Source: Xestospongia bergquistia
Lineage: Eukaryota; Porifera; Demospongiae; Haplosclerida; Petrosiidae
Assembly (NCBI GenBank): GCA_963965975.1
Contig: OZ014422.1
Span: 620,001-684,000 of the forward strand
Direction of reading: 5' to 3'
DNA: 64,000 nt
The notes under the pieces were generated by a model. The model did not search any database, was not told the DNA's origin, and saw only the letters and a program-made list of their open reading frames with translations. Below, one piece after another: positions 25 to 64,000 of the stretch (positions within the stretch are counted from its first letter, which is position 1; the number at the start of each line of letters is the position of its first letter). A program made the translations under genes and the position numbers.

Positions 25-3000
25 TTAAAAGACAACATCATGATACACAGTTGATACTGAACTTCTTTGTGATCTTAACACTGTTGATGGATCCAAAATA
101 AAATACTCTCTGTCCAGTCTTGTTGGTTTAATTGTAGTCATATTAAGGAGACTCCTTTGTATAGTTTTAAATGAAGGTCTTTGATTTGAGTTGAATGTCC
201 TGTGTTATTACTACAAATAAATTGGTAAAAATGGCATCGTTTTTACCAGCACTTTAACATCAAATCTTGTATTGGTTGAGTACAATATGATGGAGGTATA
301 GGATGTACACCTGAACTAATAGCTTGTATTGCCTGTAGAAAACAACTTTTTAAAAATGAGATTATTTGCTTTTATTGTTACTTCAATTGGTCCTAATTCT
401 TCAAATGGTTTGTTTCCTACACTCCATATCTCATAGAGTACCATCCCATAACTCCACACATCACTAGCAGTTGTATACTTCTTGTCACCTAATGCCTATT
501 TTAATGAATTATGTAAATTTAAAACTGATTATATCAACCAATGCTATGCTAACCTCTGGAGCCGTCCATTTCAATGGTAATGGTCCATTATTCTTCATTA
601 CATAATAATCATTGAGAGATATGTCTCTTGCCATACCAAAATCACCAATCTATGCAAAACGACAACTGTATTAGCTGAATATTATTAATGTGGTATTATC
701 AGGTAAGTTTTATCAGCAAATGTATTTACCAAATTGTTGACTACTTACTTTGCATGTTAAATAGCTGTCTATAAATATGTTTCTGGCAGCCAAGTCTCTG
801 TGTACAAACTTCCTGTTAGATAAGTAAACCATTCCATCAACAACGTTAATACTATATTGTAGGAATTGTTGTCTCCATATTGCAATGCTGGCAATGTTGG
901 GACCGAGTCTGCCAGCAAAACAAAGGTACTACTTATCTCATTAAGAGAGAATTAGTACTAACTTGTTTCTTAAGGTACACAGATAGCTGTGAAGGTCAAA
1001 ATTTGGCATCAATTCCAGCACTATCATGACCTAAAGGTAATAATATTATTGTCTAATAATCAATTGGTTTGGCTCAGATATTAGATAGTTGACTAAACAC
1101 ATTATTAATTAAGTTTTCTTACTGGGTCAGAGTCAATGACAACTCCATATAACTTGACAACATTAGGATGATCGAATTGTCCCATAATGGCTGCCTCTTG
1201 TAGGAACTTGACTTTGTCTTCTTTAGAAGCACACTCCTTTAACATTTTCACCGCAGTCTTTATAGATCGACCATTCACTAGCCACCTTCCTGCCTTTACA
1301 GATCCAAAATATCCATGTCCTAGCTCCTCACCTAATCTATATGACAAATTAATGTTATGTAGCTTTATTAGTGTACCTACCTCAAGTCCTGAGATTTGAT
1401 TTGTAGAAAGGAGTGGTCTGATAATTGAGAATACAGATGATTTATACTAGCAGCTGGTTTCCAATAAGCCAGTTCTTCTTCCTCTTCCTTCGATTCATCC
1501 TGCTCTACTTGGCGTCTTTGATTGAGCCATTTCTGAACCATTTCTGGATCAGGAGGCTGAAACAGATAAACGTTACTTTGTGTGTACTCATAATCATTTA
1601 CCTGAATGTCAATATAGTTTTGTTGTTTACTGGTTTCTGTACTAATATTGATGCCATTCTCTTTTTTAGTAACACATTCACTTTTCACATTATCATTTCC
1701 GCAAGTTTTGATGTAGTTCTTAATATTAACATTCACTGTGGGTTGTTGTTCCTCCTAATAATTAAGTAAATAAATTTATACATCATTATTGCTATAAAGG
1801 TAAACACTAACCCTAGATGTTTTCCTACTATCTAAAGGAGAAGGTAATATCTCATTACTGTACCTGATAGTAGCTATATATATATAAGAGAGAGAGAGAG
1901 AAATTACACAATTATGGAATGCTATATGAATACAAACATAGTCAAGACACTCACTTCCATTACATGAAGTAATTTCCTTTTCAGTTCTTATTTTCTTATG
2001 TCTTTTACATCTTATTAAGACAGCCATTCCAAGTAATGATGATGATAATATTACTACGGCCACTACTATAGCAATACATATAATTGTTACTGTAAATTGT
2101 CCTTCATTTCCAGATCCACCAGAGAAAAACAAAGTGGGGTCCTCCATAATAGCACTACTTGTAAATGATGTTTTACTTGTGACAGAGACTGCATTACTTT
2201 GAGTGGTCAATGTTTGAGATGATAGACTCTGAGTAATAATCATAACATTTGAATTTGGTTGACTTCTTGTTATTAAAGAAGAACTTGAGATTGACTTTTT
2301 GGTCATGTGTACAGAGCTTGAAGTCAATTGAACTTGACTTGGACTCCTGCTAATTTGATGAAGAGAACTTGATGTTGCTTGATTAGTTTTTAGTTGTGTA
2401 GAGCTTTCAATGATAGAGGTAATGATATTTGGAGGCAATGGTGAGTCACATCTTGTGAAATTATAATCTACAGATCAGACTATAAAATAATATCTTTATT
2501 TTAATAATTTACCATTAACTACTGACCTGTAATTGCTTGAAAGCTAGCACGAATCCAATCTTCATTTTCATTAGCTTGACTAAGCTGAAGAGTTGTTGGC
2601 ATATTAATATTAGAAAGTAAGTTATAAGCATAAAAGGATGATCCTTCATTGGGAACTTCAAATGATTGCAGAGGTATTGAACTCCATTTAGCCTCATTGG
2701 GGAAATATATACCTAGAATATCACCAGATAATACTGATATCGTTTGTGAACAGGGCAGATTTAAAGTTTGACTAAGAAGACCAGAGTTGGCATAAGAATC
2801 AGGTTGAATGTCTGTATGCCCAACTAGTGTAGCAACATTATTTTTCAATCTCCATACTTGCAGTGTAAATGAAAATCCTTGTTGAGTTTGTCTTTCTCGA
2901 TATTGCCATCCTATTACATTACCTTGACAGGGAAAGACCAAGTCAGGAAAGAGGATTTGTTTCCACATATTATTTATGGTATTTGAATAGTCTGTTAATG

Positions 3001-3151
3001 GCTGACCAATTAAAGTTGGACATACTAAAGAAATAAAACATGATACAGTAATATGTATTTTGTAGTTATTTTTCTTACCTAGACCAGCTGTTATCTGTTG
3101 AAAGCAAAAAATTATTAGATTGTAAAGACTTAGGAATCTAAACAAACTCAT
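25..3151 (-). CDS. RTK-1: sponge-type receptor tyrosine kinase, one ectodomain module
   Basis: Multi-exon gene read on the minus strand. The start at 3151 opens a signal peptide ([19 protein letters not shown]) ending at a GT donor at 3078. The ectodomain exon (about 2527-3024) holds one module with [14 protein letters not shown] and [10 protein letters not shown] Ser/Thr-rich stalk and membrane helix follow (about 1957-2471), then cytoplasmic exons (about 1812-1862, 1603-1755, 1380-1558). The kinase spans about 193-1340: glycine loop GHGYFG, lysine in [14 protein letters not shown] near 790-830, DFG near 630-650, WTAPE, DVWSYG, and RPSF in the last exon (25-199). All catalytic residues are present, so activity is likely. 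Odd points: the juxtamembrane motif has lost KYREI (it reads HSFLQI), there is no NPxY after the membrane, and the tail lacks the LGxPL/LYxxLQ motif of its paralogues. Its promoter is shared with RTK-2. Confidence 0.85.
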
Positions 3152-62700: not shown

Positions 62701-64000
62701 TAATAATGTTAACAATTAATCTAATAACATTGACAGCTGTAGATTTATATAGACTAATGAATAAATGAATGAATGAATGGACAGATAGATAGATGGATGG
62801 ATTATCCTAGAATAAATAGATGGATGGATGGTATTGATGTTAAGTCATTTAGAAGTAAGTCACTCACAGTTTGTACTGACATGTTTGTTTCTGTATAGAA
62901 CTGTTCATTACATCCTTTATACTTTAATTTTAATGGAGTAATTTTTTCATAAAGTATACCTTGTATTGTTTTAAGAGTAATATCATTATTAGGAGCTCCT
63001 GCCTCTGAATATAATGATTCTACATATACTAGTTCATCTGTCTTGAGTGTAGTGCTGATCTCTCCTGGTTGTAAGTAATGGATAGTTACTTCATACTCTA
63101 GTTCTACTGTCTTTAATGTACCATTATCTGCTTTAGTACAGTCATTAGCTGTAAATGTATGAACTGTGAGTCATTATAGTGACTACATGCACCTTTATTA
63201 GATAGATATAATTGACATTACCTTCATATATTGGATTAGATATATCATCATAAGGTACTTCACTGACATTAGTACTAGTTTCTTTTAGTGTGTTTGATTG
63301 TTTAAAATAACCAATGCTGTCGTCGTTAACAACAACTAAATTAGTCTTTCCCTTCTTTTTTTTCTGATGATAAACTATAAGAGAACTTGTTACAATTATA
63401 CCAACAATTAATAACAGTAGTAATATAGAAAATATAACAGCTGCTATTATTATTATCATCACTGGATTATTTTCTCTACTATCTTGTCCTATGGTAGGTC
63501 TGGATGATGTGAGGATATTAACAGATGATGTAGTAACTGTCAATAGTAACTCAGTTATAGAACTATCTAAATTATTACTCCTACCTGGAATTATAACAGT
63601 AGTAGATATAACAATATCTAGATAATAAAATATATATAATTATAAAATATACATTATCATTGTTAATATACTTGTAGAGGAGAAACCCGTTAGTGAGTTG
63701 GTCATAGCTAGCTGACTTAACTTTGATATAGTACTAGCAACAGAGATACAGGTAGAAGAGTTCACAACTGGAATAAAAATTTGAGACATTTCTTTTAAAT
63801 CAATTATTTACTTACCTACACAAATAGACACAAGCGGATAATCATTTTTGGTAGTTATAATGGAATAGTTGGAGTTATAGTTTTCTGGACCATTGAATTC
63901 TTGTTGATATAATATAAGGTTGCTTTTATTTCTCTGTGGTTGAAAAATAGTAAGAAAATCTCCTTCTTCTACTTGTACTGCAGAAGATGACAAATTATAT
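59743..64000 (-). CDS. RTK-12: two-module receptor tyrosine kinase, 5' end beyond the window
   Basis: The closest relative of RTK-10. Module 2 begins at the window edge (63808-64000; [20 protein letters not shown]); module 1 and the signal peptide lie outside. Stalk and membrane exons are about 63220-63620 with an intact frame through KKKKGKTN, ending SNPIYEG. Cytoplasmic exons are about 62866-63150, the repeat-borne exon near 62570, and 61200-61265; juxtamembrane about 61030-61150 (IYWEPGS, IYQQL, KYREI). The kinase has [34 protein letters not shown] and DVWSFG, all catalytic residues present. Odd: the alpha-C helix reads [10 protein letters not shown] where paralogues have [10 protein letters not shown], placing a proline beside the conserved glutamate. 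Tail [15 protein letters not shown]. Confidence 0.85.
62048..62570 (-). repeat. 92-bp tandem repeat containing a cytoplasmic micro-exon, 6 copies (RTK-12)
   Basis: Units start at about 62048, 62138, 62230, 62322, 62414 and 62506 (one is 90 bp). The sequence is the same unit as in RTK-10, but with six copies against four. Each has a GTAAGT donor on the minus strand. Only the most upstream copy has a TATATATAG acceptor. Confidence 0.87.

Follow-up and report, generated by a model that had tools for sequence, protein, structure and literature searches.

A tandem array of putative receptor tyrosine kinase genes in the sponge Xestospongia bergquistia with diverged ectodomain modules and a probably homogenised kinase cassette

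Tandem recognition genes that are partly homogenised by regional gene conversion have been described for the protocadherins of fugu, and diversifying selection was reported for the protocadherin domains EC2 and EC3 (PMC1852091; overview PMC3966226). Conversion among tandem receptor kinases was found in the OAK genes of Arabidopsis (PMC3136440). Clustered receptors, some with tyrosine-motif tails (immunoreceptor tyrosine-based inhibition motif, ITIM; hemi-immunoreceptor tyrosine-based activation motif, hemITAM), are known from Hydractinia (Alr) and Botryllus (fester/FcoR) (PMC12065747). A receptor tyrosine kinase (RTK) with an immunoglobulin (Ig)-like ectodomain was described for the sponge Geodia cydonium in the context of immune evolution (cited in PMC12018476). 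Here, 64,000 nucleotides of the Xestospongia bergquistia genome (146 Mb, 21 contigs), namely positions 620,001-684,000 of contig C12 and hereafter called the window, were analyzed. Matches to Wnt at three places of this genome mark it as animal and are consistent with a sponge; a silicatein-like pattern gave no match, for which introns or the pattern itself may account. The window contains a dense array of genes in which a variable ectodomain is predicted to precede a tyrosine kinase.

Like the clustered protocadherins, the array is a tandem cluster with divergent 5′ parts and a homogenised 3′ part with a discrete boundary. In contrast, protocadherins have cadherin ectodomains, no kinase, a homogenised part within the variable exons and a raised GC content at third codon positions (GC3), whereas here an intracellular kinase region, introns included, is homogenised and GC3 shows no increase. 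As in the OAK arrays, the kinase is among the most conserved parts, but the plant kinases carry leucine-rich repeats and their conversion tract is on the ectodomain side, whereas in the sponge many genes are homogenised on the kinase side. The likeness to the allorecognition complexes of Hydractinia and Botryllus consists in clustered receptors and tyrosine-motif tails. The Botryllus ectodomains are composed of Ig and sushi domains, and a receptor kinase is described in neither organism in the excerpts available. Polymorphism and function were studied in both, whereas the array described here is known from the sequence of one assembly. The Geodia RTK has Ig-like domains, whereas no Pfam domain reached the cut-off in the eight module copies scanned here.

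Among the open-access papers listed, no report was found that links RTKs to gene conversion, concerted evolution and tandem arrangement together, or that describes separately evolving halves in animal RTKs. Outside animal RTKs, the principle has precedents in protocadherins and plant receptor kinases. Sponges tell self from non-self and host dense bacterial communities, and to our knowledge the receptors involved in both are poorly known. The array provides named loci, selected sites and a single, as yet unnamed ectodomain module; its gene halves, evolving apart, show how an animal could alter RTK sensing without altering the output.

Kinase cassettes and ectodomains

Eleven tyrosine kinase receptor loci were identified in the window, of which ten (G1-G9 and G11) are open in the matched exons and G10 is broken. 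In the initial annotation, twelve loci (ten open or nearly so, two dead) plus relics were described to fill the 64 kb; the dense array was recovered, and the total was corrected to eleven kinase loci with one broken.

Ten kinase cassettes, belonging to genes of four ectodomain families, were found to be 92-96% identical, introns and short flanks included. The cassette has a length of approximately 1.4 kb. In G9 it is located at 49246-50656 on the minus strand and reaches from the juxtamembrane exon to the stop codon, with edges taken from pairwise matches and examined for splice sites and open reading. It consists of 8 exons, and all 7 internal introns are of the GT-AG type.

Between ectodomain families, the synonymous divergence (dS) ranged between 0.03 and 0.16 for the kinase, compared to 0.59 to 1.86 for the ectodomain. 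The kinase parts of G7 and G9 share 96.2% identity over 1,395 bp (juxtamembrane exon through last codons), whereas no nucleotide match was found between their modules (blastn, E 1e-8); the other two matches of this pair are short kinase and flank pieces. Similarly, 743 and G9 match over 1,381 bp (95.2%) and 719 and 743 over 1,428 bp (93.6%), and outside the cassette these pairs share just one 140-bp match between modules and kinase as well as short matches in the flanks. A smaller distance separates families X and Y (G9-713 and 704-725), with identities of 68-77% for the modules, 79-86% for the stalk region and 92-96% for the kinase. Within the cassette, the difference amounts to 4.5-5.3% in introns and 5.2-7.0% in exons; in 68 flanking columns upstream it rises to 19-61% and in 74 columns downstream to 29-63%.

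The low synonymous and intron divergence is confined to the shared part, as gene conversion leads one to expect. Mosaic tracts were found in three cassettes, all outside the window, and the ectodomain and kinase trees are in conflict; family Z as a kinase clade was not rejected (p 0.235). G6 represents the reverse case: its ectodomain is near to those of G7 and G8 (dS 0.21-0.27), whereas its kinase is far from theirs (dS 0.69-0.76). The dS of 0.67-0.85 between the G6 kinase and the homogenised set also excludes codon bias as the cause of the low kinase dS.

The kinase exons had been described as strongly conserved. At the DNA level, this holds for G7-G11 only, whereas the kinases of G1-G5 have 52-68% protein identity to the other kinases of the window (10 of the 11 compared) and those of G3-G5 have 49-56% DNA identity (three compared). 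For the older genes (G1, G2, G4, G5, G6 and G9; 15 pairs), the mean protein identity was 59% for the kinase (52-78%) and 25% for the module (16-31%). Such an excess of kinase over module identity is ordinary for receptor kinases. Purifying selection on the catalytic domain alone, keeping the kinases alike while the ectodomains drift, explains this older layer well, and the dN/dS ratio (omega) of the kinase is below 1 and below those of all six module sets. For the array as a whole this explanation is improbable, since in the young cassettes the introns and synonymous sites diverge as little as the coding sequence does, three mosaic cassettes exist outside the window and G6 has the reverse pattern. 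As the sole cause it is refuted for G7, G9 and G11, in which low kinase dS and high ectodomain dS occur in the same gene pairs.

The equal likeness of introns, synonymous sites and coding sequence argues for two halves with separate histories, brought about by gene conversion or exchange. As far as the sequence goes, the pattern of the young genes points to gene conversion or swapped halves and not to constraint alone. The contrast between ectodomain and kinase noted in the initial annotation thus persists as diversifying ectodomains over like kinases, but in the young genes this likeness is not mainly due to constraint.

An assembly artefact was considered as well, since tandem genes of high similarity are hard to assemble and collapsed or chimeric repeats could mimic shared cassettes. 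It is very improbable, because the alpha-type cassettes are 4-8% apart with different flanks, more than one collapsed or misjoined copy should show, and the contig spans 7.0 Mb.

Selection on the modules and their predicted fold

Equal constraint on both halves, named beforehand as the outcome that would speak against the contrast, was not observed: the one-ratio omega was 0.51-0.80 for the six module sets and 0.40 for the kinase. In four of the six module sets omega is below 1 beyond a 2ΔlnL of 3.84. A positively selected site class is supported in three module sets (the observed value was reached in 0 of 250 recombination-aware null simulations), and a fourth set is borderline (5 of 250). 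For the kinase, positively selected sites were not seen (206 of 250). Omega clearly below 1 in four sets together with positive selection in three indicates that constraint and diversification both act on the modules.

The recombination-aware test was carried out with a coarse coding, a reduced number of omega classes and FastTree trees. The selection sets exclude 701 and 712 (first modules of family X), C1160 and C1193 (second modules of family Z), fragments near C1155, C1158-1159, C1163, C1172 and C1180, the fused-frame copy 503, and copies beyond the stretches read, e.g., at C12:1141-1149 and 1200-1204 kb, on C1 and on C4.

A plain birth-and-death expansion with relaxed ectodomain constraint and some exon shuffling by unequal crossing over would require no recognition role, as in developmental receptors. 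This view is favoured by the tandem duplicates, the relics and the broken gene, by an ectodomain dN/dS near 1 in numerous young pairs, by two of the six module sets whose omega does not fall clearly below 1, by two sets without positive selection, and by other large tyrosine kinase arrays in the genome. However, three module sets were positively selected against the recombination-aware null, and the omega clearly below 1 overall in four sets indicates constraint beside diversification. We regard this explanation as doubtful, albeit a serious competitor.

The assignment of the modules by structure prediction and profile search, suggested in the initial annotation, gave a predicted fold and, in the eight copies scanned, no Pfam family. 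Structure prediction gives the module a jelly-roll fold, with a moderate likeness to carbohydrate-binding and phage-fibre domains. Three Foldseek matches to predicted viral proteins were obtained at E ≤ 0.001, the best with an E-value of 2e-5. Among solved structures, a search by sequence for relatives of one module gave one match (E 1), which is not credible.

Kinase outputs and interpretation of the array

The kinases belong to the tyrosine kinases: PF07714 is matched above the cut-off, and the HRD motif is present in 20 of the 21 loci with a full HRD exon at C12:590-764 kb. The spliced G9 kinase is nearest to Eph and FAK kinases, setting aside a tandem EGFR construct for which two domains were summed. 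The sole exception to HRD is G4 (14099-19548, minus strand), assigned by own hidden Markov models (HMMs), open reading frames (ORFs) and catalytic motifs, with one module at 19084-19371. Its kinase region at 14111-15444 is open, but both catalytic aspartates are lost (HRD to HRN, DFG to NFG), and by sequence G4 is an open pseudokinase. An ORF of G4 (16190-17074) contains 99-bp repeats (16394-16823) that encode repeated SPYMEPSP with five YMEP motifs and one YLEP motif. These repeats suggest a docking tail behind the dead kinase, the YxxP motif presumably being linked to adaptor binding.

The array exceeds the window. Module copies were found over C12:495-763 kb (512-590 kb lies outside the stretches read) and again at C12:1.14-1.20 Mb, with smaller groups on C1, C4, C8 and C14. 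Between C12:590 and 764 kb, 22 kinase loci were counted, including the broken G10. No adjoining kinase exon was found for fifteen genes: five with a single module at 600-611 kb and two groups of five module pairs each, at 495-506 kb and at 687-701 kb (one pair of the latter group is broken). The kinase-less genes end 3′ in a different, putative exon of approximately 66 codons, whose splice acceptor is conserved. Nineteen copies of this exon were found, namely in the 15 kinase-less genes, at 757.8 kb (where, judged by strand, it follows a broken module located at 759 kb), partially at 493.7 kb and twice on C4. The tyrosine motif I-x-Y-x-x-L/V occurs in 15 of 15 aligned tails of the 19 found. 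The kinase-less genes 688, 692 and 698 are approximately 93-94% identical to G9 through the modules, the hydrophobic segment (putative transmembrane segment, TM) and a 92-bp repeat, after which the 3′ ends differ. They have near-identical ectodomains with different predicted cytoplasmic ends, as in paired receptors.

The five single-module kinase-less genes at C12:600-611 kb are spaced by approximately 2.5 kb, and the tail of one of them (604 kb) is degenerate. A further single module with a short frame at C12:702.5 kb, between kinase-less genes and the kinase at 703-704 kb, is probably a relic.

In our view, the locus is probably a multigene receptor array whose genes consist of two halves with separate histories, a diversifying ectodomain and a 3′ cassette copied between neighbours. 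The 5′ half, with one or two jelly-roll modules, would duplicate and diverge, partly under positive selection, while the 3′ signalling cassette, a tyrosine kinase or, outside the window, a kinase-less end, would be copied repeatedly among neighbours by gene conversion or unequal exchange. The proteins would act as cell-surface receptors whose modules may bind variable ligands, such as microbial glycans or proteins, or those of conspecifics. Homogenisation could hold the output uniform behind changing specificities, so that new specificities would plug into one output. Such a layout would suit a receptor family faced with many changing targets. The pseudokinase and the kinase-less members, which share the ectodomain plan, may be modulators or decoys that tune or block the output. 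Judged by gene anatomy and selection, the products are most likely cell-surface kinases with outer modules that would meet variable ligands and an inner half kept uniform by conversion; they may serve to sense microbes or self.

Several results weigh against this explanation. A full distinction between gene conversion and swapped ectodomain halves is not possible. GC3 is not raised in the homogenised kinases (0.293, compared to 0.198-0.324 in G1-G6); GC-biased conversion thus left no signal in GC3, and the signature used for protocadherins is absent. A GC3 bias commonly accompanies conversion, but conversion can occur without it. In the ectodomain tree, the long branches 743 and 748 are placed together, a grouping for which the program issues a warning. 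Two of the six module sets showed no positive selection (94 and 236 of 250 null simulations) and another was borderline. The location of selected sites in loops, indicated on a weaker structural model (p 0.019), was gone on a better one (p 0.69). Foldseek gave no match of the module model to the PDB at E ≤ 0.001, and the fold matches are moderate. Finally, purifying selection was not observed on the kinase-less 3′ exon (omega 2.4, which does not differ from 1; rows B502, out of frame, s604, degenerate, and B499, short, excluded), so that its coding status is unproven and its reading as a constrained signalling domain unsupported. Co-location of selected sites across families reached p 0.058.

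A further-reaching reading would be a sponge recognition complex built on RTKs, with diversifying lectin-like ectodomains, conversion-kept uniformity and three outputs: an active kinase, a pseudokinase with repeated tyrosine motifs and a kinase-less tail with tyrosine motifs. By analogy, such a complex would correspond to the activating and inhibitory receptors of immunity or allorecognition, but with kinases as its basis. We put it forward tentatively, as it is rather unlikely.

Loci of the window and other arrays

Gene models were built from exon profiles and splice signals. Kinase loci and modules were located with own HMM profiles built from exons of the window itself, together with ORFs. 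In the ten open loci, the first kinase exon scored E-values of 4e-34 to 9e-43, and the 13 full modules reached 4e-22 to 3e-41, against profiles built from the same copies. PF07714 passed the cut-off at three places of the window, two in G2 (C12:627781 and 628756) and one in G6 (129 of 1,201 candidates scored), which provides support independent of the self-built profiles. No RNA family reached its gathering score in the window.

The gene plan from 5′ to 3′ comprises one or two module exons, a Ser/Thr-rich stalk with a hydrophobic segment, juxtamembrane exons and short kinase exons; modules, stalk and the putative TM lie in this order 5′ of the kinase in the predicted genes. The ten loci other than G2, which alone lies on the plus strand, are encoded by the minus strand. 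The window contains 14 module copies, one of them truncated at its edge, and relics besides. In agreement with the initial annotation, the ectodomains vary in module number (none in G3, one in G1, G2, G4 and G5, two in G6-G9 and G11), in stalk length and in an additional Cys-rich N-terminal part (G5).

G1 (28-2950) has its module at 2675-2950, the stalk/TM ORF at 1779-2474, kinase exons at 379-1326 and a probable last exon in the ORF 28-204. G2 (3447-9841) consists of a module at 3597-3902, a stalk/TM ORF at 4035-4709 and kinase exons at 7790-9787. For G3 (10126-13539) a module was not found; a short stalk and TM are located at 13228-13539 and kinase exons at 10348-11818. G5 (20059-25562) has its module at 24918-25220 and kinase exons at 20080-21565, and at 23220-23429 its region contains 60-bp repeats that code for repeated peptide units. 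All four were assigned by own HMMs and ORFs.

The modules of G6 (28565-32863) are at 32384-32701 and 31840-32130 and its kinase at 28565-29765. G7 (33230-37379) has family Z modules at 36918-37238 and 36374-36664 and an alpha-type kinase cassette with exons at 33230-34442. G8 (38450-42422) has modules of the same family at 41976-42290 and 41432-41722; its kinase (38450-39647) is of the beta type with short alpha tracts. G9 (49246-54231) carries family X modules at 53752-54051 and 53210-53494, a stalk/TM ORF at 52656-53114 and an alpha-type kinase. The broken G10 (55428-57836) has one family Z module (57522-57836), a split first exon and a kinase that lacks the HRD exon and is 95% identical to the G8 cassette. 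G11 (59758-64000) has an alpha-type kinase at 59758-60967 and a TM ORF at 63148-63639; its second module, from 63895, is truncated at the window edge, and its first lies beyond it (C12:684446-684739). The 92-bp tandem repeat is present in 3.9 copies in G9 (51521-51878) and 5.9 copies in G11 (62028-62566) and also occurs in kinase-less neighbours. Its units are exon-like and tyrosine-rich, and the copy number varies between genes.

Relics, as already noted in the initial annotation, are present on the minus strand: a frame-broken partial match to the kinase profile Kb (26245-26497), a stray kinase-exon fragment upstream of G7 (37550-37639; 147-bp match, 97%, to the G9 kinase) and a broken family X module (54522-54790).

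Between G8 and G9, a 5-kb insertion (43280-48242) with inverted ends of approximately 606 bp (99-100% complementary) was found. It holds two ORFs of 292 and 776 aa, neither with a Pfam family at the cut-off. Relatives of the 776-aa ORF occur at about a dozen other places, from 91% down to approximately 30% identity, and nearly all are broken or partial. By its sequence, the insertion is probably a young DNA transposon.

Other large tyrosine kinase arrays of the same genome are located, among the matches listed, at C6:1621-1696 kb, C11:5918-6074 kb and C5:57-86 kb. In the C6 and C11 arrays, most of the matches listed cover the whole kinase domain in one open frame.

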